This document shows, piece by piece, positions 41,439 through 64,000 of a DNA stretch of 64,000 bases. The notes under the pieces are model-generated. The model saw nothing but the letters and a program-made list of their open reading frames with translations, did no database searches and was not told the DNA's origin. Source of the stretch: Dysgonomonas sp. BGC7 (GTDB taxonomy: Bacteria > Bacteroidota > Bacteroidia > Bacteroidales > Dysgonomonadaceae). Where the stretch lies: NCBI RefSeq assembly GCF_001261735.1, contig NZ_CVRP01000019.1, positions 1-64,000 on the forward strand, read 5' to 3'. Every line of letters begins with the position of its first letter. Within the stretch, counting starts at the first letter, position 1. The translations under genes and the position numbers were made by a program.

Positions 41439-42317
41439 ATGTTATTTTTAGATGCATCTTCAATCCTATCTGAAGTAATAGAAGAAAACCACCAATTGAT
41501 ACCGGTTGTAAACCGTTTTGGAGTAAAACTCGGACTGGGAGATAAAACAATTGGCGACATTTGTCACTCTGCAAATATAAATACAGACTTTTTTCTGGCT
41601 ATATTAAACACTTTTCTGAACGAGGACTACTTTCCCGAGCGAAAGCTACAAAAGTTCGATCTTGAATTGGTTCTCAAATACATTAAACAAACAGACGTTT
41701 ATTTGATTCATGGGCAGTTGCACAACCTGGAAAAGCATATGAATGCTTTCTTATCTATGAGCGACCCCAACAACGCTCAATTGAAGTTAATAGGTAAACT
41801 ATTTTCCGACTTTAAGAAAGAACTGCTCGGTCTTATTGAACAGGGAATGGTAAAAGGAGACACTCCTTTGGCACTCTTAACAGACCTGAAAAGCATTATC
41901 ATAAAGCATATATCAGGAAATTTCAATGAGAACATGTGCTATGCTGTAATCTTTACCTTAGACAGCTTTCAGAAAGACCTGGAAAAGCACAACCGTATAA
42001 GAGAAAAGATATTGAAACCAATGCTTGACGAGCTCGACGAATCCAGCATCGAAGATCTGCAAGAGCTGATTGCCGCCAGCCATTCGGTAAAGGAAAACAA
42101 AGGTCATTCTCTCTCGCAACGCGAACTGGATGTTCTTCGCTTAATAGCTTTAGGCATGTTGAACAAGGAAGTAGCAGACAAACTCAATATAAGCTTAAAC
42201 ACTGTTTTATCTCACAGGAAGAACATAACTGCAAAACTGGGGATAAAGACTGTATCGGGACTCATTTTTTATTGTATAACACACGGCCACATATCAGCTG
42301 ACGAAATAGAACTATAA
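41439..42317 (+). CDS. LuxR-type regulator with a RIC/hemerythrin-like N-terminus
   Basis: A 292-residue cytosolic regulator. The C-terminus (about 224-285) is a LuxR helix-turn-helix: SLSQRELDVLRLIALGMLNKEVADKLNISLNTVLSHRKNI. The N-terminus (about 8-66) resembles the ScdA/DUF542 domain of the iron-sulfur repair protein RIC (YtfE), but the CCGG cysteines are replaced by LGLG. The middle keeps hemerythrin-like positions: His91 and His95 in LIHGQLHNLEKH and His184 in LEKHNRIREKILKP. It could sense oxygen, NO or iron. It is translationally coupled to a small membrane protein (ATAATG). Confidence 0.8.
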   Translation: MLFLDASSILSEVIEENHQLIPVVNRFGVKLGLGDKTIGDICHSANINTDFFLAILNTFLNEDYFPERKLQKFDLELVLKYIKQTDVYLIHGQLHNLEKHMNAFLSMSDPNNAQLKLIGKLFSDFKKELLGLIEQGMVKGDTPLALLTDLKSIIIKHISGNFNENMCYAVIFTLDSFQKDLEKHNRIREKILKPMLDELDESSIEDLQELIAASHSVKENKGHSLSQRELDVLRLIALGMLNKEVADKLNISLNTVLSHRKNITAKLGIKTVSGLIFYCITHGHISADEIEL

Positions 42318-53560: not shown

Positions 53561-55516
53561 TTATGGCTGTTTAGTCTCATCTTCTCTTTCCTGAGCTTTT
53601 TTGAGTCCCCAAGCAATTGCATTAGCAGTTAATACCGAATTGTATACATTGTAGGTAGTTCCTCTACCATAAGCAGCTCTTGGTATCGGCTTATTATTGT
53701 TCGACTCATCCACACGGAAAGGATATGCATATCTGTATATAAAATCCGAATAACCGGAGTTGAATCCGCCATCACCACAATACAGATAATTAAGGCTGGT
53801 ATGCCTGAACATAGTAAGCTTATCCGTATTTGCAGTAGCTGTTTGAGTCATATCGTCTCCTGTACTGTATGAAATAATAGATCCCGCAGGAATGTTACTA
53901 AATGCTCTTGTAGCTGTAGCATCTTCTCCCCATTGCTTGCCTCTGATGTCACCAAAAGGGCCATTCAATATTTCGTCATTATTATAAGGTAGTGCATATA
54001 CTGCTCCTCCGGCATTGATGGTTGTGGAAGTAATTGATTTATTTCCAAATATGGTTTGATTGATAAGTTCAGACCCTCCAAATTCAAGAAATGCCAGTAA
54101 AACTCCTCCTTTTGCCAGATAGTCTACAAAATGTTGACAAGAAGCATCATCTGGTGTATAATAAACACCAAGTATTACTACTGCAGGCATTGCATCCAAC
54201 TCCGTTTTCAATTGAGCAGCTGTCGGGGTGTAGTCTCCTATGTTGTCATCATTAACTATTATATTTTCTACTTTTACGATACTATTTTCCAATAGTCCAA
54301 AGTTTGCTGCGGTTTTTATTAATTTGGCCGATTGCGAGAGTCCTAATCCATTACTAGGACTTCCTGAAAAGGCGTAACCATAGACACCAGAATAAGTGCC
54401 TAATGTTAATATTTTTTTGGGTGTTAATGCTACATCTATAAAAGCTTTACATGTAGCACTATTAGACTCACTGTTAGTCGATATGGTTACTGTTTTTTTT
54501 CCGGTACTGGTAGGAGTACCAAAACCCATTAGTTTAATAGGCTGTAAAACCATTGATGCCGACAATATACCTGAAGCCTTATAATATACACCATCTACAA
54601 CATCAGTCTTGATATCATAAGTAGCTCCATATGAAGCAACAGGTACATCAAGATAGACCTCGATATAATTGGTCGGATCAAGTTCCGTATTTAGCTTAAG
54701 AACCCCAAAGGCTTTTGTTGTATTACATCTTAAGGTATAATTAGGCCTGATAGATGAATCTGCAACTGTTATTGAAAATGTACAAGCCGGGTTACTTCCA
54801 TTTTCGCGCACTCCATTAATAGATACAGTAAACTGGTCAACTTGAGGATCTTTAGGTGTACCCATTCCTGGGATTACCAATGAGAAAGTACCTGTTGATA
54901 AGAATTCTCCGGATGTAATGAAAAAATATTCATTATCGTTAGCCGGATCCGTTGCAGTTGCTGTAATAGAATAGGCTCCTGCTTTAGTTACAGTAACATT
55001 TATAGTCAAAAAATTACTAGATGATAATGATTCTCCGTTACTATATCCTCCATAAACTTTAATGTCATTACTACAATCGGCGATAGTAAATATTGATTGC
55101 CCTTTTCTTGTTTCAAAACAAGTCCATTCTCTACCATTCCATTGATTAAGACCCTTACATAAACCATTCTCGACATCTTCAACCAAGTTGTAGACAATCA
55201 GACCGGTATGTTTTTTATCCTCTACTTCTTTTTTGGCAGCATTGTTATAATCATTATTTGCACTTGTTGAAAGAGGGTTGTCAGGATCTAATAAAAACAT
55301 CGGATAGAGTTGATTTTTGTCGGATAATATTACGCGCGGAAGTCCCAACCCTCGATAGGCATTCCGTGTACTATCGCTTATATTCTCTCTTTCTTTTATT
55401 TGTAACAAAGCTCCTTTCTCAGGCTCTTCTCCCAAACCAATAGTTACCTGAGCACCCAAATAACTGGTATAAAAGAAACCGATCAATATCGCAAAGATAA
55501 ATACATAATTTTTCAT
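53561..55516 (-). CDS. Secreted surface protein with a shared N-terminal module
   Basis: A 651-residue exported protein; the signal peptide ends at LGAQ (Gln23). Residues 23-140 form a module found in two other genes here (QVTIG, EKGALLQIKE, GLPRVIL, LYPMF, EDKKHTGLIVYN, WNGREW). The middle (about 145-370) looks like repeated Ig-like beta domains (NVTVTKAGAYSITATATDP and similar). The last 280 residues resemble a Rossmann/glutamine-amidotransferase-like fold (MPAVVILGVYY, FVDYLAKGGVLLAFLEFGG), without a clear catalytic triad. Probably displayed on the cell surface. A leader of at least 60 bp contains 12-bp direct repeats. Confidence 0.72.
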   Translation of the reverse strand: MKNYVFIFAILIGFFYTSYLGAQVTIGLGEEPEKGALLQIKERENISDSTRNAYRGLGLPRVILSDKNQLYPMFLLDPDNPLSTSANNDYNNAAKKEVEDKKHTGLIVYNLVEDVENGLCKGLNQWNGREWTCFETRKGQSIFTIADCSNDIKVYGGYSNGESLSSSNFLTINVTVTKAGAYSITATATDPANDNEYFFITSGEFLSTGTFSLVIPGMGTPKDPQVDQFTVSINGVRENGSNPACTFSITVADSSIRPNYTLRCNTTKAFGVLKLNTELDPTNYIEVYLDVPVASYGATYDIKTDVVDGVYYKASGILSASMVLQPIKLMGFGTPTSTGKKTVTISTNSESNSATCKAFIDVALTPKKILTLGTYSGVYGYAFSGSPSNGLGLSQSAKLIKTAANFGLLENSIVKVENIIVNDDNIGDYTPTAAQLKTELDAMPAVVILGVYYTPDDASCQHFVDYLAKGGVLLAFLEFGGSELINQTIFGNKSITSTTINAGGAVYALPYNNDEILNGPFGDIRGKQWGEDATATRAFSNIPAGSIISYSTGDDMTQTATANTDKLTMFRHTSLNYLYCGDGGFNSGYSDFIYRYAYPFRVDESNNNKPIPRAAYGRGTTYNVYNSVLTANAIAWGLKKAQEREDETKQP

Positions 55517-55577
55517 TTTTAATCTGCTAGTGTTTATTAAATGTTTGTGATTATTATTTGATTTTGTCTATTGTACA

Positions 55578-55613
55578 GATCTTTAGTCTGATCTTTAGTC
55601 TGATCTTTAATCT
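55578..55613. repeat. Three 12-bp direct repeats upstream of a surface-protein gene
   Basis: GATCTTTAGTCT occurs twice and GATCTTTAATCT once, head to tail without spacers, 62 bp upstream of the ATG of the leftward 651-residue protein gene. Such repeats can be operator half-sites or hot spots for slipped-strand changes. Confidence 0.85.
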
Positions 55614-56063
55614 GTTTAACAAAAGAACAGACTATTTTGATTCGTCAAAATGAGCAATGTTAGAAACTTCCACGGCTAATATACTTCCATATACACTATG
55701 TATCTGCACATTACTAATTTTTTGTTTATCTCATATGTTAGATTGATTTAAACAAATATAAATATTAAAATACTCTTTCATAATTCTTGTTTATGCAACA
55801 ATTTCTTATCAGATCGCATAATATAAGCTAGTTTATTACTACTATTTGTCATTTTAAATTTAACGTATTATTGGACATTTACACGATAGTTATTTAGCTT
55901 GTGTAATTACTTATTAAAGCATTGCAACAACGAGTATAATCACCACAAAATTAGTGCTTATATCCTTCATTTACTATGTAAGAAGTAAACAACCCTTTGT
56001 ACTACATGAAATGTAACAACCTTATATACAAATAGTTAAATTCTATATTGAACGATAGTTTTG

Positions 56064-56130
56064 TAATAAAGTAAAATGTATTGGTAAATACTGTATAGTT
56101 GACTAAATATGTAAAATACATATTTTTTTT
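56064..56130 (+). ncRNA. Candidate small RNA
   Basis: A perfect -7 box TAGTTTTG (56056-56063) is followed about 45 bp later by a 7-bp hairpin (56107-56113 with 56117-56123) and eight T. The pair could delimit an RNA of about 60 bases. There is no -33 box, and the region is AT-rich enough for both signals to arise by chance. Confidence 0.22.
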
Positions 56131-56248
56131 ATGTACCAACTTGTATTTAATTAAACAGAACAATACGGCATTTACTGATTGAAATATTTATTATGATAGA
56201 ATAACTATAGATATTAAAAATAAATAATATAATCTGAGATCTTCATTC

Positions 56249-57889
56249 TTACATAGCAAGTACACTATCCAGGAATTCAACTGTATTTTTATTCTCTGGA
56301 ATACCTGCTTTTTTACGGATATGAGAACTGTATTTATAAATTGTATGGGAACTTTTTCCTGTTATTTCAGCTATTTCAGTCAAAGAGAATCCGCACTTCA
56401 ACAATATACCGATCTTTATTTCCATATCAGTCATCTCTGGATATGTTTGAATCAGGCGGTCTACATAGGCATTATAGTTCTCATTTACCAATGCAGACAA
56501 ATATTCCCAATCAAATTCGAATAAGTAGTCTTGTCCAAATAATATTTTGTTAGCGCTTTCCAAAAAATGTCTATACTTATTCTTTTGGGGAGAAATAGAT
56601 AAAGTCACCATTCTTCTATAGATTTCTATATTTTGACTACGAGCTTCCATCACTGAACGTATTATCTCTTTTTTGTCATGTAATTGTTGACTGATAACCT
56701 CAATATGCTTCTTCTTCCGGTATCTGTAATAAATAAAAGCAATAGGTATAATAACCGCTACAAGAACAGCTAAAAAGATTATTGTTTGTACCTTAAGCCT
56801 ATTCTTTAGGTATAAGTTACGATTCTTTTCAAAATCAATTTTTCGTTCCAGGTATTTAATATCGTCATATTTTTGTTTCTGACCGATAATTTCTGTTACT
56901 TGATTAAAACTTTTGTAATTATCCAAAGCCAGTTGTAGATTATTACTCTTAGTAGCTATTTCATATATAGAACTATAAGCATTGTGCATAGTCTGATAAT
57001 CTTTCGATTTTTTCGCAAAACTTATCGCTCTATTATTATAATACAGGATTGAATCTCCCTCCCCCTCTTTTTCAAAAATATCACCTTTTATAGCGTATCC
57101 TATAGCAAGATCTTTATTTCTCACTGATATATCAATCGCCTTGTTTATAGCATATTTGGCTTCAGGATATTTTTTGAGTCCTATTAGAGTAACGGCTATA
57201 TCCCTATAAATTTTAGCTTTGGAACTGATACTGTCATCCGGTATTTTAGCTATTGACTTTCGGTACATTTCCACACCCTTATCAAACTGTTGGTCTTTTA
57301 CATAACAATCGCCAATAAGCTTAAGTATATTTTCCTCTGAAAAGAAAAGATTATTTTGTCTGAAATAATCTAATCCTTTTTGGTAATAGTCTATTGCCTT
57401 TTTATATTCTTTCAGATTATTATCATATATGTCGGCCAGAAAATACGCGGAATAGGCTTTCAACTTATGAGTATTTATCCCTTCAAAGTTAAATGCTTTT
57501 AAATAGTAGTGTTCAGCCTCAGTATATTTTCCCTGTTCTTCAAATACCTGTCCGGCATAAAAATATGCTCGCCCCAAATCGTCGCAAGGATGTTTCTCAT
57601 AGTAATCTATGATATATGTAATAAACGCATCATCAGTTATAGATATTCTATTTAATTTATGAGCCTTTATCAATAATAACCCATAACGGGCATAATCTTC
57701 TTGAGACAAACTCTCGGGAGATTCTATAGATTCAAGCAAGATCAATGCACTGTCAGGTTTGACCTCAATGAACGATCCAACCTGATCGAGTATATCTTCA
57801 GGTGCATATCGCAAACATGAAGAAGATGAGAAAATAATTAAAAAGAGAAATAAAATAGATAGAGTCGACTTTATGTAGCAGTATGTCAT
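56249..57889 (-). CDS. Membrane-spanning TPR/HTH transcriptional regulator
   Basis: A 546-residue protein. The N-terminus is a signal or lipoprotein-like segment (SSSC, Cys25). Several TPR repeats follow (about 60-340: YFYAGQVFEEQGKYTEAEHYYLKA, IDYYQKGLDYF), then one helix (about 368-388), a coiled stretch, and a C-terminal helix-turn-helix (about 486-530: MEIKIGILLKCGFSLTEIAEITGKSSHTIYKYSSHIRKKAGI in pieces). This is a common Bacteroidetes design for envelope-to-DNA signalling in one protein. The start at 57889 is chosen because a -7 box sits on the ATG at 57928. Probably controls nearby surface genes. Confidence 0.82.
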   Translation of the reverse strand: MTYCYIKSTLSILFLFLIIFSSSSCLRYAPEDILDQVGSFIEVKPDSALILLESIESPESLSQEDYARYGLLLIKAHKLNRISITDDAFITYIIDYYEKHPCDDLGRAYFYAGQVFEEQGKYTEAEHYYLKAFNFEGINTHKLKAYSAYFLADIYDNNLKEYKKAIDYYQKGLDYFRQNNLFFSEENILKLIGDCYVKDQQFDKGVEMYRKSIAKIPDDSISSKAKIYRDIAVTLIGLKKYPEAKYAINKAIDISVRNKDLAIGYAIKGDIFEKEGEGDSILYYNNRAISFAKKSKDYQTMHNAYSSIYEIATKSNNLQLALDNYKSFNQVTEIIGQKQKYDDIKYLERKIDFEKNRNLYLKNRLKVQTIIFLAVLVAVIIPIAFIYYRYRKKKHIEVISQQLHDKKEIIRSVMEARSQNIEIYRRMVTLSISPQKNKYRHFLESANKILFGQDYLFEFDWEYLSALVNENYNAYVDRLIQTYPEMTDMEIKIGILLKCGFSLTEIAEITGKSSHTIYKYSSHIRKKAGIPENKNTVEFLDSVLAM

Positions 57890-57932
57890 AAGTTTTGGTT
57901 TTATAAATGAAAGTGTAACTTGAAGCATTTTG

Positions 57933-57940
57933 CAAAAATA
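57933..57940 (-). promoter_or_regulatory. -7 promoter box of the TPR/HTH regulator gene
   Basis: TATTTTTG on the minus strand matches TAnnTTTG. It lies 4 bp before an ATG at 57928 and 43 bp before the ATG at 57889, which favours the latter. Confidence 0.45.
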
Positions 57941-58052
57941 ATTTGTAAAATGGTTACTCCAACAAGCAGAGTGTTAAAAATAAGAGATAGAGATATGATA
58001 ATTCTCATATTTTTTCTTAAAGGAAGCATATATAGTTTATTATAAAACATAC

Positions 58053-59633
58053 TTAAATAGTAATTCTCTTCACCTCATCCTCGAATCCGTCTTCGTCGAT
58101 AGCTTTTGCCTTAATCTTACTTCTGTAATTATATACCGTCTGAACTGTTACCCGTAAGAAAGAAGAGATCATTTTATTATCTGAAATACCAAGCTTCAAC
58201 AAAGCTAATATACGAAGTTCTGTATTCATTTTCTTTTCATCCTTAAGCATGTAACGACTGTCTTCGAGCAAAAGACTATTAACGCTTTCTATAAAGTTAG
58301 GATATAACTCAAAAAAAGTATTGTCAAAATCTGAATACAATAGATCTATTTCACTTTGAGTATTATTAAGTTGGTCATTTTCCGATTTTAGAATATCTTC
58401 AGAATAGCCCGATTTCAGTTTTCGAAGGATAGATTTTCTATAGTCCTCAAATTTCTTTATATAGATCGAAGACATATTTAGATAATGTCCTATATATATT
58501 TCTTTAATACGATTATGTTCCTTTAATGTTAAATTTGCATTGAATAGTTCCAGCTTTGTTTTGTTCAATATTTTATTGTGTTTATACACAAATATTAGAA
58601 TTATGGCCAATAAAACAAAAAAGACAGAAATGATTCCTGAATAATATTGTAAACTTGTCTGCTGATCACTTATTTTATCATAATAAGTATCTTGTATCAA
58701 TGTGTGCGTCTTTTCTGCTATACTATATCTATGACTGTTACTAAACATTTTTGCATCTTCCATTGCAATATTAATATAGCTATATGCTTTGTCTGTATTT
58801 TTTTCTTCCTGAAGAATCATCGCTAAATATATCAATGGAGGATTTTTCCTAATTGCCAATCGATTATATTCAATAGATGCCTGAATTAAATATCTTTTTG
58901 CTTCGGCCCACTTCTCTTTTCCTGATTCCATCAACACACCACCCTGATTAAATAAAAATTCAGCGTGCATATATGGAGTAATGTCAGGATGCTGTAATAT
59001 TAGATTTACTGTCCGAACAGATTCTTCAAGCATTCCGTTCATATAATACTTATAAGCTAATATTGTCAGATATTCAACACTATTCTTATCTCCAAAAGAC
59101 AAGTAGGCATCAATATATTTGGCTTGTTCTTTTCTATATTTATTTCTGTAAAACAAGTCATTAATATCCTTAATCTGATTGTGGTAAACATAAATATAAG
59201 TATGATAATATTTTGTTTTATATGCAGTTGGTATTTTTTCAGGATCAATAGACTCTAATATACTAAAGGACTCATGAAAAAGCTGAGGAAAACTTAGAAG
59301 ATAGGCTCTCGCCAGTTTTACATCCAATATATATTCGTCATTATTTAATTCCAAGGCAAGATCTAAACATTTTTTTGAATAATATAAAGAAGAGTCACTA
59401 ACAAAATAACTATATTCTTCCATTATTCGTCTTGTCCTACGATATTTTTCTTCTTTTGTTTTCGAACTATTCAGAAAATTAGTAAGTTGTAATAAGTTAT
59501 CTTCTTTTTGTTGTATATAGATTAAGCGTTTGTCTAATGATTTATCTAATACGTTTAATAAGGAATCAGCTTCATTACAATAGACAACTGCATGAAGACT
59601 CATCAGGAAAGAAAATAGAATAATAACTTTCAT
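58053..59633 (-). CDS. DUF6377-like TPR/HTH membrane regulator
   Basis: A 526-residue protein from the ATG at 59633 (a TTG one codon earlier is not favoured). It has a signal peptide (MSLHAVVYCNEADSLL), a TPR-like region (about 40-310), one helix (about 330-350), a coiled segment, and a C-terminal DNA-binding domain (about 470-510: ELRILALLKLGISDNKMISSFLRVTVQTVYNYRSKIK in pieces). It belongs to the Bacteroidetes family with the DUF6377 domain, thought to link periplasmic sensing to transcription. Its HTH differs from that of the 56249 gene, so the two are not recent copies. Confidence 0.82.
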   Translation of the reverse strand: MKVIILFSFLMSLHAVVYCNEADSLLNVLDKSLDKRLIYIQQKEDNLLQLTNFLNSSKTKEEKYRRTRRIMEEYSYFVSDSSLYYSKKCLDLALELNNDEYILDVKLARAYLLSFPQLFHESFSILESIDPEKIPTAYKTKYYHTYIYVYHNQIKDINDLFYRNKYRKEQAKYIDAYLSFGDKNSVEYLTILAYKYYMNGMLEESVRTVNLILQHPDITPYMHAEFLFNQGGVLMESGKEKWAEAKRYLIQASIEYNRLAIRKNPPLIYLAMILQEEKNTDKAYSYINIAMEDAKMFSNSHRYSIAEKTHTLIQDTYYDKISDQQTSLQYYSGIISVFFVLLAIILIFVYKHNKILNKTKLELFNANLTLKEHNRIKEIYIGHYLNMSSIYIKKFEDYRKSILRKLKSGYSEDILKSENDQLNNTQSEIDLLYSDFDNTFFELYPNFIESVNSLLLEDSRYMLKDEKKMNTELRILALLKLGISDNKMISSFLRVTVQTVYNYRSKIKAKAIDEDGFEDEVKRITI

Positions 59634-60109
59634 CAATATTAGCCAGTCTTGTGTAAATATATCAATTAAGTAATCTCTGAAAAAGTTGCTTTTGTGATTA
59701 AGCCAGAGAAAGAGACAATTATTTTGTTACGGAATACAAACTCACAGTCAAAGGAATATTTATAAAATTACTAATTGTCTTCAGAGGCAAAATTACTTAT
59801 TTATTTTATATACACGAATAAGAAATAATAATTTGAAGATAAAAAGTTAAAAACGATTCCATTATTTCTAACTACAAGATAAAAAACATTGGTTTTACTA
59901 TTCCAAATAAGTTACATTATCCTCATTATATATCTACTATTCATTACTACAAACGCGCCTTTCCTACAGAAACATAAAACAATGTATTACAACATATTAC
60001 ATTCACATGATTACAAATACAGAAAAGAGATATCTATAATAGACATGAAAGCTTTCATTTAACTTTACTAAAAACTAATAGTAGAAAATACAGATAATAA
60101 AAATATCTC
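59634..60109. other. Divergent AT-rich intergenic region
   Basis: About 475 bp between two divergent regulator genes. No open frame with coding character and no clear -7 box were found; TTATTTTG-like sequence near 59720 is one base short of the consensus. Regulatory sites for both genes presumably lie here. Confidence 0.5.
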
Positions 60110-60874
60110 ATGATAAAATATCTTATACTTATTATAACTCTATTTGTTTTTTGTAATACTTTATCTCCAGAAAAAAAATATTACAAACAAGTATTTTATA
60201 CTTATGCTTCCTATCAACTCCAAAATGAGATTGAAGGTAATAATACAAATAATTTTCATAGTGAAGAAGATAGATCTACAAATAATGATTCTCGTTATCT
60301 GTATTGTACCATATCTCTAGCTATCTCTTTAGTTGTCTTTTTCCTTTCCATATATTACAGTTATAAACAACTAACTAAAACAAAACAGTCTATCCAACAT
60401 AAAGACAACATAATAAAGAGAATGGAAGATGATTTTGTAAATAATAGGAAGATGATAGAAACATGTAGAGTAACCAACAAGGAAATGCTTGATGTATATA
60501 TGCGTATAGTACAACTATCGGTTTCGCCTAAGAAAAGACATCATCAAAAATTCTTATTGGACTATAATAGCATTATTTATAATAATAGTGAAGAATTCCA
60601 ATTTGATTGGGAAACTTTTAGAGTATTATTCAATAATACGTTCAACTATTATATTGATAAGCTAAAGACTATTTTTCCAGATCTTTCTGAAAAAGAAGTA
60701 CAAGCAATCTCTATGCAGAAAGCAGGTTTTGATATAGCGGACATTGCCCAAATATTCGAATATAGTGTCAATACTATTTATAAACGCAATTCGGATATAC
60801 GCAAAAAACTAGGAGTGCCTGAACTTGGTAATATTATTCATTTTATCGACCATGAATTAAGACAAAAGATATAA
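60110..60874 (+). CDS. TPR-less membrane HTH regulator, paralogue of the 56249 gene
   Basis: A 254-residue protein with a signal-like start (1-18), a short outside segment, one helix (about 63-84), a coiled stretch, and a C-terminal HTH. It aligns with the last 160 residues of the 56249 protein: VQLSVSPKKRHHQKFL with VTLSISPQKNKYRHFL, FQFDWETF with FEFDWEYL, and the HTH KKLGVPE with KKAGIPE. The entire TPR sensor region is missing, leaving only about 45 residues outside. It may be a decoy, a constitutive regulator, or one that senses through a partner. Confidence 0.75.
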   Translation: MIKYLILIITLFVFCNTLSPEKKYYKQVFYTYASYQLQNEIEGNNTNNFHSEEDRSTNNDSRYLYCTISLAISLVVFFLSIYYSYKQLTKTKQSIQHKDNIIKRMEDDFVNNRKMIETCRVTNKEMLDVYMRIVQLSVSPKKRHHQKFLLDYNSIIYNNSEEFQFDWETFRVLFNNTFNYYIDKLKTIFPDLSEKEVQAISMQKAGFDIADIAQIFEYSVNTIYKRNSDIRKKLGVPELGNIIHFIDHELRQKI

Positions 60875-61256
60875 TATATAGAAGAATAGAACTTATATAT
60901 AGAATTAAATATTTATATTAAATATAAAACACTATATATAAATAAAATACAATATTAAATATATTAAATTGTATTAAGATTATAAAGATGATGATTACAC
61001 TTTTTGAGATAGATTTGTAATAGAAAATCGGTTGACATTTTCAGAATTAAAATTAAACTTTAGTTAGGGAATTATTCAAGCCTGTTAAAATATAAACTTT
61101 GTCTATTATAATATTTAACACACATCTGTGTAGTTTTGTAAAGTTTGTGTTAAGGATAATCCCGTGAGTCGTGAGATTAGCGGGATTTATTTTAGACAAA
61201 GAAATAGATAAGATTAAATATCGAATAAAAGTTATTCAGACTAAAATGTAAAAATC
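60875..61256. other. AT-rich intergenic region with promoter and leader hairpin
   Basis: About 380 bp. The left part is almost pure A and T. TAGTTTTG (61131-61138) may be the -7 box of the FISUMP protein gene. A 7-bp hairpin (AATCCCG with CGGGATT, 61158-61187) followed by TATTTT lies in the presumed leader and looks like a weak terminator or attenuator. Confidence 0.45.
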
Positions 61257-62498
61257 ATGAAAAAAACCTATATAAAGAATAAGACAGCCATATTCTTTCT
61301 GCTAGTAACACTAACGAATCATTTATCAGCACAAGTAACTATTGGTGCTGGCATAGAACCCAATAAAGGAGCTCTATTGGATTTGAAAGAAAATAATGGA
61401 AATAGTCACAACATTACTACTAATAAAGGAGTTATTTTACCCCGAGTAAAACTCACTGACCCTTACAATCTATATCCCATGTTTAGTTCTGATAATATGG
61501 GCGGCTATAAAAACAGTAATAAATCAGTAGAAGACAAACAGCATATAGGACTATCGGTATATCACATAGACGAGTGTAGTCTGGAAGGAGCCGGTTTATA
61601 TTTATGGTCGGGTAAGAGATGGAAAAAAGCAAATGAAGATCTTCCAAATCATGTTTATCGAATAACAGACTCGCGGGATGGAGAAATGTATCTGGCTCGT
61701 AACTTTGGAACACAGGCAGGAGATTGGATGCTGGAAAATATGAGATACAAGAGCGCAGATATAATTTTAAGTCGGAAAGAAGATGCTAATTATGCAGATG
61801 TTGTTCAATCAAGACTAATGCGTTATTTCTACCCAAACGGAATAAATAATGATATTCCATCTACATGGAACAGAAAGCAAGGTTTGCTTTATAGTTATGC
61901 TGCTGCAACAGCGGGTAAACAAAATAATACAGATCAGAATCAAGGACAAGTAGCAGGCAATACGCCTGGCGTAAATGAAGTAGAATCAGTAATTGGATAT
62001 ATACAAGGTATCTGTCCAACAGGTTGGCACATACCTAGTGACAGGGAATGGAACGCTCTCGAAAAAGAAATATACAACAATCCTGAAAAATATAGTGAAT
62101 ACTCTGGTAGTAACAATTTTAATCCGGCAAACTGGATTCCGGCATGGGAAAGCTCATCGTCTGCTGCTATACGAGGATCTTCCGGTACGAAAGGGCATGC
62201 TCATGCGATGCTGTCCGCCTGTCCTGCCCCCGGTAATGTAAAATCAGTCAATGGTAAAAGCCTTCCATCAACATTAGGCGGATTCGATGCATTACCTATA
62301 GGATATGCATATAATGGTGAGGTCATCGATCATGGCGGTGGTTGCTACTTCTGGACAGCGAGTACTACAACCAGAGATACACAGAATCCAAACATGTTAT
62401 GGGCTTGGGATCGTATAATAACAACTGATCAGGCAGGGGTTTTACGCTATACATATACCCGTAATGCATTGTTTTCTGTCCGTTGCAAAAAAAACTGA
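61257..62498 (+). CDS. Secreted FISUMP-domain surface protein
   Basis: A 413-residue exported protein with a signal peptide ending at LSAQ (Gln26). Residues 26-140 form the shared N-terminal module (QVTIGAGIEPNKGALLDLKE, LPRVKLTD, LYPMFSSDN, EDKQHIGLSVYH, LWSGKRW). The rest is a Fibrobacter-succinogenes major paralogous domain: ICPTGWHIPSDREWNALEKEI, GGCYFWTAS, and the closing FSVRCKKN, which recalls a lectin-like C-terminus. These proteins are thought to bind surfaces or polysaccharides. It is transcribed alone and faces a small lipoprotein gene. Confidence 0.82.
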   Translation: MKKTYIKNKTAIFFLLVTLTNHLSAQVTIGAGIEPNKGALLDLKENNGNSHNITTNKGVILPRVKLTDPYNLYPMFSSDNMGGYKNSNKSVEDKQHIGLSVYHIDECSLEGAGLYLWSGKRWKKANEDLPNHVYRITDSRDGEMYLARNFGTQAGDWMLENMRYKSADIILSRKEDANYADVVQSRLMRYFYPNGINNDIPSTWNRKQGLLYSYAAATAGKQNNTDQNQGQVAGNTPGVNEVESVIGYIQGICPTGWHIPSDREWNALEKEIYNNPEKYSEYSGSNNFNPANWIPAWESSSSAAIRGSSGTKGHAHAMLSACPAPGNVKSVNGKSLPSTLGGFDALPIGYAYNGEVIDHGGGCYFWTASTTTRDTQNPNMLWAWDRIITTDQAGVLRYTYTRNALFSVRCKKN

Positions 62499-62535
62499 TA
62501 TAGCTTATACTATCCTCTTGTTAAGACCATGTTAT

Positions 62536-63126
62536 TTATCTTTTTTCATAAATAACAGTAAAATCTAAACCTTTTGTATTTAGTCCATAGCATAATTCAA
62601 ACCAAATATTTCCCTGTGATGTTCTGACCAAAAACTGTTTATAATTATATGGATATGGATCATACATGTCTTTTGCATAACGCATACTGTTTTTTCTAAG
62701 CAAATCAGTAGCTTTGTTTATTATCCCTCCTGAATAAACCAAAACACCTCCTAGCTGCAATATAGTTTCTTCATAGTTTTTCACAACACTCGTTTCCGAG
62801 AATTCTTGCCCATCTATAGGTAAAACCATGACATGGTAATATTGTCCGCCTATAGTCATAACTAAAGAATCATTGTAAAAAAAGTATTTTTCTTCATATA
62901 CTCTATTGTGCTCATTTATATATTGATAGCCTTTTGGTGCTGATAAATAAGGATATTCCCCAATCTCTGAGTTTGTAATGGGAATAGAATTAATATCAAA
63001 CTCTGTAATACTAGATTGAATATTTTCATTTACAGATTTGTCCGTAAGTCCCTTTTGGGAACTCTGAAAACAAGAACTGTAAAAAAACATTAGAAAAAGG
63101 GTGAAGATAAATACTATATTTTTCAC
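62536..63126 (-). CDS. Lipoprotein of unknown function
   Basis: A 196-residue protein with a lipoprotein signal (YSSC, Cys19) and a GTG start, since no in-frame ATG fits. The mature part includes IGEYPYLSAPKGYQYINEHNRVYEEKYFFYNDS in pieces, which recalls the N-terminal part of some OmpA-linked lipoproteins, but the OmpA domain itself is absent. It ends YGLNTKGLDFTVIYEKR. It may be a periplasmic or outer-membrane lipoprotein serving the surface locus. Confidence 0.65.
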   Translation of the reverse strand: MKNIVFIFTLFLMFFYSSCFQSSQKGLTDKSVNENIQSSITEFDINSIPITNSEIGEYPYLSAPKGYQYINEHNRVYEEKYFFYNDSLVMTIGGQYYHVMVLPIDGQEFSETSVVKNYEETILQLGGVLVYSGGIINKATDLLRKNSMRYAKDMYDPYPYNYKQFLVRTSQGNIWFELCYGLNTKGLDFTVIYEKR

Positions 63127-63407
63127 GCATAATTTATTTTAGTGAACCGCGAAGATAAGCTTTTCATTATATAAATCTAATTTTTCACCTATTGATTTTA
63201 AGCAATTTACAAACAAAGGCCACAACAACGTCGTTCATCTCACCAAGCAGTCGTTTGTCTCATATTTTCTTATTAAAATCAGACTCCTGATACTTTTGTA
63301 GTATAAACTATATCCAGTAAAAATTGAAATTGTAATAATAGGTTGAAGATTAGAAGAGTACTATAAACAAATAATACAAAAAGTGACTCTTGAGTAAATA
63401 AGACTTT

Positions 63408-64000
63408 ATGAAACTATATAAAATTATTCAGATAATATGCTTTGTGCCTGTGGTTATTTCCATGACAGCAAATGCTCAGGTAACAATAGGAGAAACAGAA
63501 GCACCTGTTAATGGAGCTCTATTGCAATTAAAAAATATAGCTAATATAAATGGCGCAGAAATAAATGCTAACAAAGGATTAGCTCTTCCCCGTGTCAGTC
63601 TTGCAAGCAAAACTGCACTATATCCTATGTTCACAACACATGCGGACACCCTCAATACTGTCTATAAGAAAAATCATACAGGCCTGATGGTATATAATAC
63701 CAACAGATGTCTTACTAAAAATGAGGGCAAGGACGGCAGAGGTATCTGGATATGGGATGGTACTATGTGGAATAACACATCGGTTTTAAGCGAAGCATCA
63801 TCATTATTTACCAGTACCGACCATATAGATCTACCTAGTGGTAGCGATGCTCGAGGTGCTGTAGGTCCTATAGAATTAGGACTAGAATGGAATCCGGTTG
63901 ACAAACAAGTTACTTATACAGCCCCTACAGCCAGCCCTTCTTTTACTGGCGTTTCTTTCAACAGCATTACTCCCTCCAGCCCCGTTTCTGCCGCTTCAGG
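63408..64000 (+). CDS. Secreted surface protein with the shared module (cut by the window edge)
   Basis: At least 197 residues; the frame is open to the right edge. A signal peptide ends at ANAQ (Gln24). Residues 24-135 repeat the module: QVTIGETEAPVNGALLQLK, GLALPRVSLA, LYPMFTTH, HTGLMVYN, IWDGTMW. After it comes a Ser/Thr/Pro-rich stretch (YTAPTASPSFTGVSFNSITPSS), typical of a linker or phage-tail-like repeat. The remaining domain lies outside the window, so its type is unknown. The gene begins about 280 bp after the lipoprotein gene on the other strand. Confidence 0.75.
   Translation, partial: MKLYKIIQIICFVPVVISMTANAQVTIGETEAPVNGALLQLKNIANINGAEINANKGLALPRVSLASKTALYPMFTTHADTLNTVYKKNHTGLMVYNTNRCLTKNEGKDGRGIWIWDGTMWNNTSVLSEASSLFTSTDHIDLPSGSDARGAVGPIELGLEWNPVDKQVTYTAPTASPSFTGVSFNSITPSSPVSAAS

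Follow-up and report, generated by a model that had tools for sequence, protein, structure and literature searches.

An N-terminal head shared by proteins with exchangeable binding bodies is a kind of arrangement that is already known. The Fib_succ_major (FISUMP) domain has been found in targets of diversity-generating retroelements (DGRs) and has been linked to DUF1566 and to the C-type lectin fold (PMC4159848, PMC8143477). Here, we analyzed one stretch of DNA, the window, which spans positions 1-64000 of contig C19 (205 kb) in the 4.32-Mb genome of Dysgonomonas sp. BGC7, with open reading frames (ORFs) called by a simple six-frame caller. Five genes form an array, one end of which falls in the window; their products begin with a common module, the head, and continue into bodies of which four are FISUMP and one is not. 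Our data support the proposal of a first-pass annotation, made from the sequence alone, that a conserved N terminus is combined with exchangeable C termini, both by the number of body clusters found behind the head and by a tract of identity confined to it. It is this module with exchangeable bodies that makes the finding interesting. The genes of the array are as follows.

53561..55516, minus strand: module protein of 651 aa; its body consists of two repeated stretches (by eye) and a C-terminal domain, with no fold assigned, and has a homolog in the body of the C3:45413 module protein
55121..55450, minus strand: head module of the 651-aa protein, from a profile match (55115-55450 with the five-head profile)
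61257..62498, plus strand: module-FISUMP protein of 413 aa (Pfam, NCBIfam)
61332..61631, plus strand: head module of the 413-aa protein (five-head profile)
61722..62486, plus strand: FISUMP (Fib_succ_major) body of the 413-aa protein (FISUMP profile)
63408..64000, continuing to C19:65420, plus strand: module-FISUMP protein of 670 aa, 5' part in the window; FISUMP at C19:64668-65405
63477..63779, plus strand: head module of the 670-aa protein (five-head profile)
C19:65459-66667, beyond the window: module-FISUMP gene, 402 aa (Pfam)
C19:66910-68088, beyond the window: module-FISUMP gene, 392 aa (Pfam)

The three proteins named in the first-pass annotation (53561, 61257, and 63408) were said to be exported and to begin with one module, and this was confirmed. 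Each starts with a hydrophobic, signal-peptide-like stretch followed by a common module of 101-113 residues as cut, with the pattern QVTIG ... GALLxLK ... KGLxLPRVxL ... HTGLxVYN ... GxYxWxGxxW. Compared with the head of 61257, that of 53561 shows 46% identity and that of 63408 shows 42%, and pairwise identity among all five array heads is 38-52%. A profile built from these five heads finds them again at E values of 1e-45 to 1e-40; since it also finds 13 further copies elsewhere in BGC7 with E values under 1e-16, chance likeness is excluded. In total, the five-head profile has 26 matches in the BGC7 genome, 18 of them below 1e-16 (including the five array heads), 7 between 4e-10 and 7e-6, and one marginal (0.008). 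When 25 heads were compared with domain libraries at E 0.05, NCBIfam gave no match and Pfam a single isolated one for one head (RPA43_OB, E 0.026), while PHROGs returned only single-member matches, the best of which, for one of the 25 heads, was to a tail fiber family (E 6.8e-6). No head matched a PDB chain at E 10, and two heads searched against 50,697 phage records had no match. The module is a genuine domain family that the domain libraries checked do not list. In the literature searched, the term FISUMP was not found and Fib_succ_major occurs in four papers, a result that does not exclude a description of the head elsewhere.

Another account of the common N terminus would be that it reflects mere signal-peptide composition combined with the Q-rule. 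Glutamine at position +1 is indeed general in Bacteroidetes signal peptidase I substrates and is not a generic sorting signal (PMC5837995). A signal peptide followed by Q ([AGSTC]Q and the module motif, preceded by a hydrophobic stretch) is present in 82 of 85 module proteins; in the remaining three, judged by eye, the Q accompanies a variant of the motif. This agrees with the Q-rule and suggests, by pattern alone, that the first glutamine is exposed by signal peptidase I. The similarity, however, extends about 100 residues past the Q and includes conserved positions (G, LPRV, HxGL, and W), and the signal peptides are only 26% alike, compared with 49% for the heads. The head alignment, the profile matches, and this difference in identity exclude the signal-only account. 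The module proteins of the array have a signal-peptidase-I-like start rather than a lipoprotein start, and no lipoprotein signal was recognized. Their location at the surface is putative, as is their route across the outer membrane. In one non-Dysgonomonas genome (L261 2295-10163), three module proteins encoded in tandem end in closely similar C-terminal tails, which resemble sorting tails by eye yet lack a match to TIGR04183, the tail of the type IX secretion system.

Behind the head, the 413-aa protein (61257) carries the FISUMP domain that had been assigned to it, with 65.4 bits for PF09603 (cutoff 33.9) and 66.0 for TIGR02145 (cutoff 41.65). The 670-, 402-, and 392-aa proteins score 72.7, 63.6, and 93.4 bits in Pfam and 51.3, 47.7, and 70.7 in NCBIfam, so that all four FISUMP proteins of the array exceed the curated cutoffs of both libraries. 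Extending the sequence to the right of 64 kb, as had been suggested, both completed the 670-aa gene and revealed the two further module-FISUMP genes; the unseen domain previously taken as a different body of 63408 turned out to be FISUMP (72.7 bits). The body of 53561 has no FISUMP match in Pfam or NCBIfam. Its description as Ig-like plus Rossmann-like was not borne out, as Pfam gave only subthreshold CBM_35 (E 0.0038) and Big_3 (E 0.05) matches, and the protein had no PDB sequence match at E 1. The FISUMP body likewise had no PDB sequence match at E 0.1.

The variety of bodies becomes apparent beyond the array. The 29 module genes identified by pattern in the BGC7 genome have bodies that group into 11 clusters at E 1e-4. 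Adding 40 loci drawn from five relatives, together with 20 control windows, gave a set of 85 module ORFs, four of them from three control windows, and the 83 bodies of at least 60 residues formed at least 14 clusters, a lower bound owing to single linkage. The largest contains 42 FISUMP-like bodies (34 of which pass the FISUMP profile), followed by 12 mixed short bodies, 10 resembling 53561, and smaller clusters. FISUMP is the commonest module body found in Dysgonomonas, where the other bodies include Ig_7 (x9), LRR_4, and BACON; several module bodies have no Pfam match at all. All 10 FISUMP matches in the BGC7 genome lie, judged by position, inside ORFs that start with the module, and so do 34 of 35 in the wider set, a rate biased by the choice of windows around strong module hits. 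A fairer view comes from loci found by FISUMP patterns: among the best 80 listed, 79 loci held 106 FISUMP ORFs, of which 23 carry the module. Loci titled Dysgonomonas account for 15 of these, the module being present in all 15 of their FISUMP ORFs among the matches listed, and the remaining eight belong to Dysgonomonadaceae or Candidatus Symbiothrix metagenome-assembled genomes (MAGs), two of them with weak matches (domain E about 3e-4).

Different bodies behind one head could also mean that nothing has been exchanged, the proteins being one old adhesin family in which the first domain was conserved and the remainder diverged beyond recognition. The partial clustering of body classes on the head tree agrees with such a history, which we nevertheless consider improbable, as the bodies fall into distinct Pfam families (FISUMP, Ig_7, LRR_4, BACON, and S74), and the starred branches of the head tree alone, from an alignment that is short, force two to three changes of each body label. 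Within genomes, head DNA identity averages 0.650 for pairs with the same body (201 pairs) and 0.646 for pairs with different bodies (502 pairs), and among 34 proteins the head is more conserved than the FISUMP body in 538 of 561 pairs (0.49 versus 0.38). Further evidence against divergence without exchange comes from two neighboring genes on contig C18 (L045:7005-9038 and L045:9586-11652), which share a 197-nt identical tract that spans residues 32-96 and lies wholly within the head. In ungapped register, identity is 45% over the 120 nt before the tract and 24% over the 120 nt after it, and the bodies are 42% identical by global alignment (37% by BLAST). This tract is one clear case of recombination confined to the head. 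A second pair, in genome G003, with identical heads, near-identical signal peptides, and bodies 60% identical, may be a plain duplication.

All 25 Dysgonomonas genomes, BGC7 included, contain the module, with 4-81 matches each at E 1e-8 to a profile of 25 heads from BGC7; FISUMP is present in 21 of them. The richest genome (G007) has 81 module and 59 FISUMP matches, although some of these 81 module matches have the same score on each of two contigs, which may reflect duplication in the assembly. Among 295 other sampled Bacteroidota genomes, at least 17 were matched by the 25-head profile, and at least 52 contain a distant form recognized by a wider profile with distant heads added, six of these 52 having themselves supplied rows to that profile; both counts are lower bounds, with at most 17-18 candidates scored per genome. 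In 36 module ORFs from 20 non-Dysgonomonas Bacteroidota genomes (one stretch each), the first module match invariably begins by residue 64.

Considering these data, we propose, with a probability of roughly 0.55, that the fixed head docks or assembles exported proteins carrying exchangeable ligand-binding bodies. The head would be an N-terminal domain common to a large family of exported Bacteroidota proteins, with its first glutamine exposed by signal peptidase I, and would remain fixed as bodies are exchanged. It may dock the protein on a common envelope or surface partner or else nucleate assembly, and each body would present a different binding site or ligand; an anchoring role of the head is plausible. 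A binding role of the FISUMP bodies is supported by the relationship of Fib_succ_major to the C-type lectin fold (PMC4159848, PMC8143477). Duplication, divergence of the bodies, and recombination within the head would enlarge the repertoire, and the array would have been put together in the BGC7 lineage next to regulators and a FimA/Mfa-type pilus operon, neither of which is a general partner.

Several observations weigh against this proposal. Within the locus itself, four of the five bodies are the same domain. A tree of the 83 heads needs 22 changes of body label, compared with 36.8 for shuffled labels; because labels change less often than when shuffled, heads and bodies appear to travel together often and exchange to be occasional. 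The other 83 FISUMP ORFs among those listed, mostly from other Bacteroidota and Fibrobacter, lack the module at E 1e-4 (five of them are from Dysgonomonadaceae or Symbiothrix MAGs, three starting at a contig edge). One Dysgonomonas genome (G016) holds 65 FISUMP but 6 module matches and another (G008) 1 FISUMP and 12 module matches, so the two numbers need not go together, and most FISUMPs of G016 must, by these counts, stand on something other than the module. By such matches, FISUMP does not need the head, even within Dysgonomonas. Finally, the five array proteins and the C3 relative have no match to TIGR04183 in NCBIfam scans, beyond which no other type of sorting tail was sought; eight matches to this family occur elsewhere in the genome.

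If the head does dock or assemble proteins, its partner would explain how a large class of exported Bacteroidota binders is displayed with neither a lipoprotein anchor nor a recognized type IX tail, and would offer one handle on dozens of uncharacterized proteins. The domain is present in up to dozens of copies per Dysgonomonas genome and has no credible family entry or solved relative in the libraries checked. In a more far-reaching and rather doubtful extension of the proposal, Dysgonomonas, a gut-associated genus, might maintain a recombining cassette repertoire of tens of exported binders with one docking head and lectin-like bodies. Such a repertoire would provide many binding specificities on one scaffold, with new ones spreading by head recombination, and would constitute a paralogue-based counterpart of retroelement-driven receptor diversification.

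The strongest rival to a docking head is a role in trimeric fibers, because distant relatives bear S74 and collagen bodies. In this scenario, the proteins form homotrimeric fibers, the head initiates or caps the trimer in the manner of phage tail fiber N termini, and the Dysgonomonas proteins are short versions. Of 10 non-Dysgonomonas module proteins scanned with Pfam, picked from the 36 partly for their coiled-coil tails, five end in an S74 intramolecular chaperone; an F5/8C domain and a beta-roll were found in one protein each. In a second set of five, S74 and collagen repeats (L137) each occur in one. The weak PHROG match mentioned above, in a family named tail fiber protein, points in the same direction. 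Neither S74 nor collagen, however, was matched in the five array proteins or in 11 other Dysgonomonas module proteins scanned, and the lack of phage-record matches for two heads also speaks against this scenario. We regard the trimeric role as possible, if on the unlikely side, and retain the docking or assembly head as the preferred reading.

The remainder of the locus lies between and beyond the module genes, as follows.

56249..57928, minus strand: tetratricopeptide repeat (TPR) regulator of 559 aa with weak helix-turn-helix (HTH) matches; a local neighbor, no general partner of the module
58053..59636, minus strand: SusR-like/DUF6377 regulator of 527 aa; a local neighbor
60110..60874, plus strand: short HTH-like protein of 254 aa without a TPR match; a local neighbor
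62536..63126, minus strand: protein of 196 aa between two module genes, with a lipobox-like start (by eye) and no Pfam or NCBIfam family above the cutoff
C19:68158-70814 (L006 18159-18869 and L007 1-1814): genes for a LytTR response regulator and a TPR histidine kinase, separating the module array from the pilus operon
C19:71117-79267 (L007 2117-10267), outside the window: FimA/Mfa-type pilus operon

The first-pass annotation described two long regulators with TPR, transmembrane, and HTH parts and a TPR-less paralogue. The TPRs of 56249 exceed the Pfam cutoff, and 60110 is a short HTH-like protein with no TPR match (GerE 18.5 bits, below the cutoff of 23.5). The 58053 protein showed no TPR match above a cutoff in Pfam or NCBIfam. 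It belongs to the PF19904 (DUF6377) family (206 bits; cutoff 36.7) and scores 383 bits for NF058541 (SusR), below the cutoff of 480. The pilus operon encodes a DUF3575/OmpA protein, two FimA/Mfa-like proteins, an Mfa2 anchor, and a FimA-like subunit; one of the two FimA/Mfa-like proteins, of 968 aa, has a C-terminal Lcl_C-like domain (E 1.1e-5, below the cutoff). The regulator part is AT-rich, with a G+C content of 26-31% versus 33-39% in 15 of 16 segments of 4 kb, and Rfam gave a single tRNA in the window, distant from the module locus. Seven proteins tested matched no antiphage defense family. Over L006 9600-19001, we counted 52 promoter-like sites (41.8 expected, standard deviation 6.6) and 3 terminator-like sites (4.6 expected). 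Only two inverted pairs whose arms are 100-600 nt apart occur in the array, both weak (77% and 83% complementary) and near the regulators; as neither adjoins a module gene, there is no sign of an invertible promoter beside these genes.

Their adjacency in the window, and the LytTR regulator and TPR kinase that flank the array on its opposite side, could suggest one surface-display system in which the module proteins cooperate under the neighboring TPR/HTH regulators, as the first-pass annotation proposed under the term envelope-sensing control. We consider this very unlikely. The search for neighbors used phmmer (E 1e-5), with the window regulators and the regulatory and fimbrial genes that directly follow the window as queries; of 56 other module loci, 7 have a regulator homolog no more than 6 kb from a module gene, compared with 2 of 17 control windows that have one near the center. 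Of the expectation that a search across Bacteroidota would pair the module with varied C termini and nearby TPR/HTH regulators, the first part stood and the second did not. By eye, several module copies from named genomes among the matches listed (for example, L059, L060, L061, and L070) stand alone among housekeeping genes. Linkage of the three named genes in related genomes, on which the proposal had been staked beforehand, was not found either. The purU gene was detected in 16 of 25 Dysgonomonas genomes, BGC7 included, and 14-20 kb downstream of it was inspected in 13 of the 15 others. A POT transporter lies beside purU or one gene away in 12 of these 13 relatives, and none of the 13 has the module genes or the TPR, SusR-like, and short HTH regulators in that interval; one has a homolog of HTHa, an HTH gene beyond the pilus operon, about 18 kb past purU, and one a DUF3575 homolog about 13 kb past it. 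Because none of these 13 relatives has it at the corresponding place, the array is an assembly of the BGC7 lineage, and the surface-display locus under adjacent regulators is a matter of local chance or lineage-specific assembly.

The nearby operon also raised the idea that module proteins act at a pilus tip, which we rejected as a general link, since fimbrial homologs lie near 1 of 56 other module loci and 1 of 17 controls. In the same contig, the gene at 41439-42314, which follows purU-POT in several relatives, sits about 9 kb upstream of purU, so the gene order of this segment differs in BGC7.

Module genes occur in further settings. Short module proteins (209-265 aa) that share a tail such as FINIVFVIR are encoded on BGC7 contigs C6, C9, and C1 (L048, L053, and L055). 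In five cases, short module genes lie just upstream of, and on the same strand as, genes for exported-looking proteins of 537-1926 aa (once with a small ORF between); these partners have a cysteine near the end, within CxxPVN or CxxPIN in three of five. Two module-FISUMP genes, L047 7281-8597 on C21 and L071 10001-11215 in Dysgonomonas sp. Marseille-P4361, lie amid phage tail- or connector-like genes (by eye), both near a similar tail-chaperone-like gene.

How, then, does the array compare with described systems? DGR targets carry a C-terminal Fib_succ_major or DUF1566 domain on a longer protein, as the FISUMP proteins of the array do (PMC4159848, PMC8143477). Unlike in such systems, no reverse transcriptase (RVT_1) match is found on C19, and the variety here is among paralogues. 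The BGC7 genome has three RVT_1 matches, one of them DGR-like. The latter, at C22:56810-57394 (L247 and L249), has an IGxxxSQ motif of the kind seen in DGRs, and its contig bears phage-like genes (by eye); no template and variable repeat pair was found in the sequence searched, where C22 ends just past the reverse transcriptase. In FimA/Mfa (type V) pili, the likeness lies in such an operon 3-11 kb beyond the array, the largest protein of which ends in a related Lcl_C-like domain; the five array module proteins differ in having no FimA/Mfa Pfam match and a signal-peptidase-I-like start. S74 trimeric fibers share the Peptidase_S74 domain with some distant module proteins but not, by Pfam matches, with those of the array. 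FISUMP proteins at large (PF09603, TIGR02145) have the same body as four of the five array proteins; outside Dysgonomonadaceae and Candidatus Symbiothrix, those among the best 79 loci listed have no module at E 1e-4. The closest relatives of the head itself are Bacteroidota proteins of the type QVGIGT...LLIPRV...LVYN, some with S74 or collagen, a kinship anticipated in the first-pass annotation and supported by the distant profile matches. Their scanned bodies are fibers, other domains, or unassigned rather than FISUMP, and their heads are shorter, at about 60-85 residues, the difference lying mainly between LPRV and GLxVYN; like the heads of the array, they are homologous domains placed near the start of the protein.

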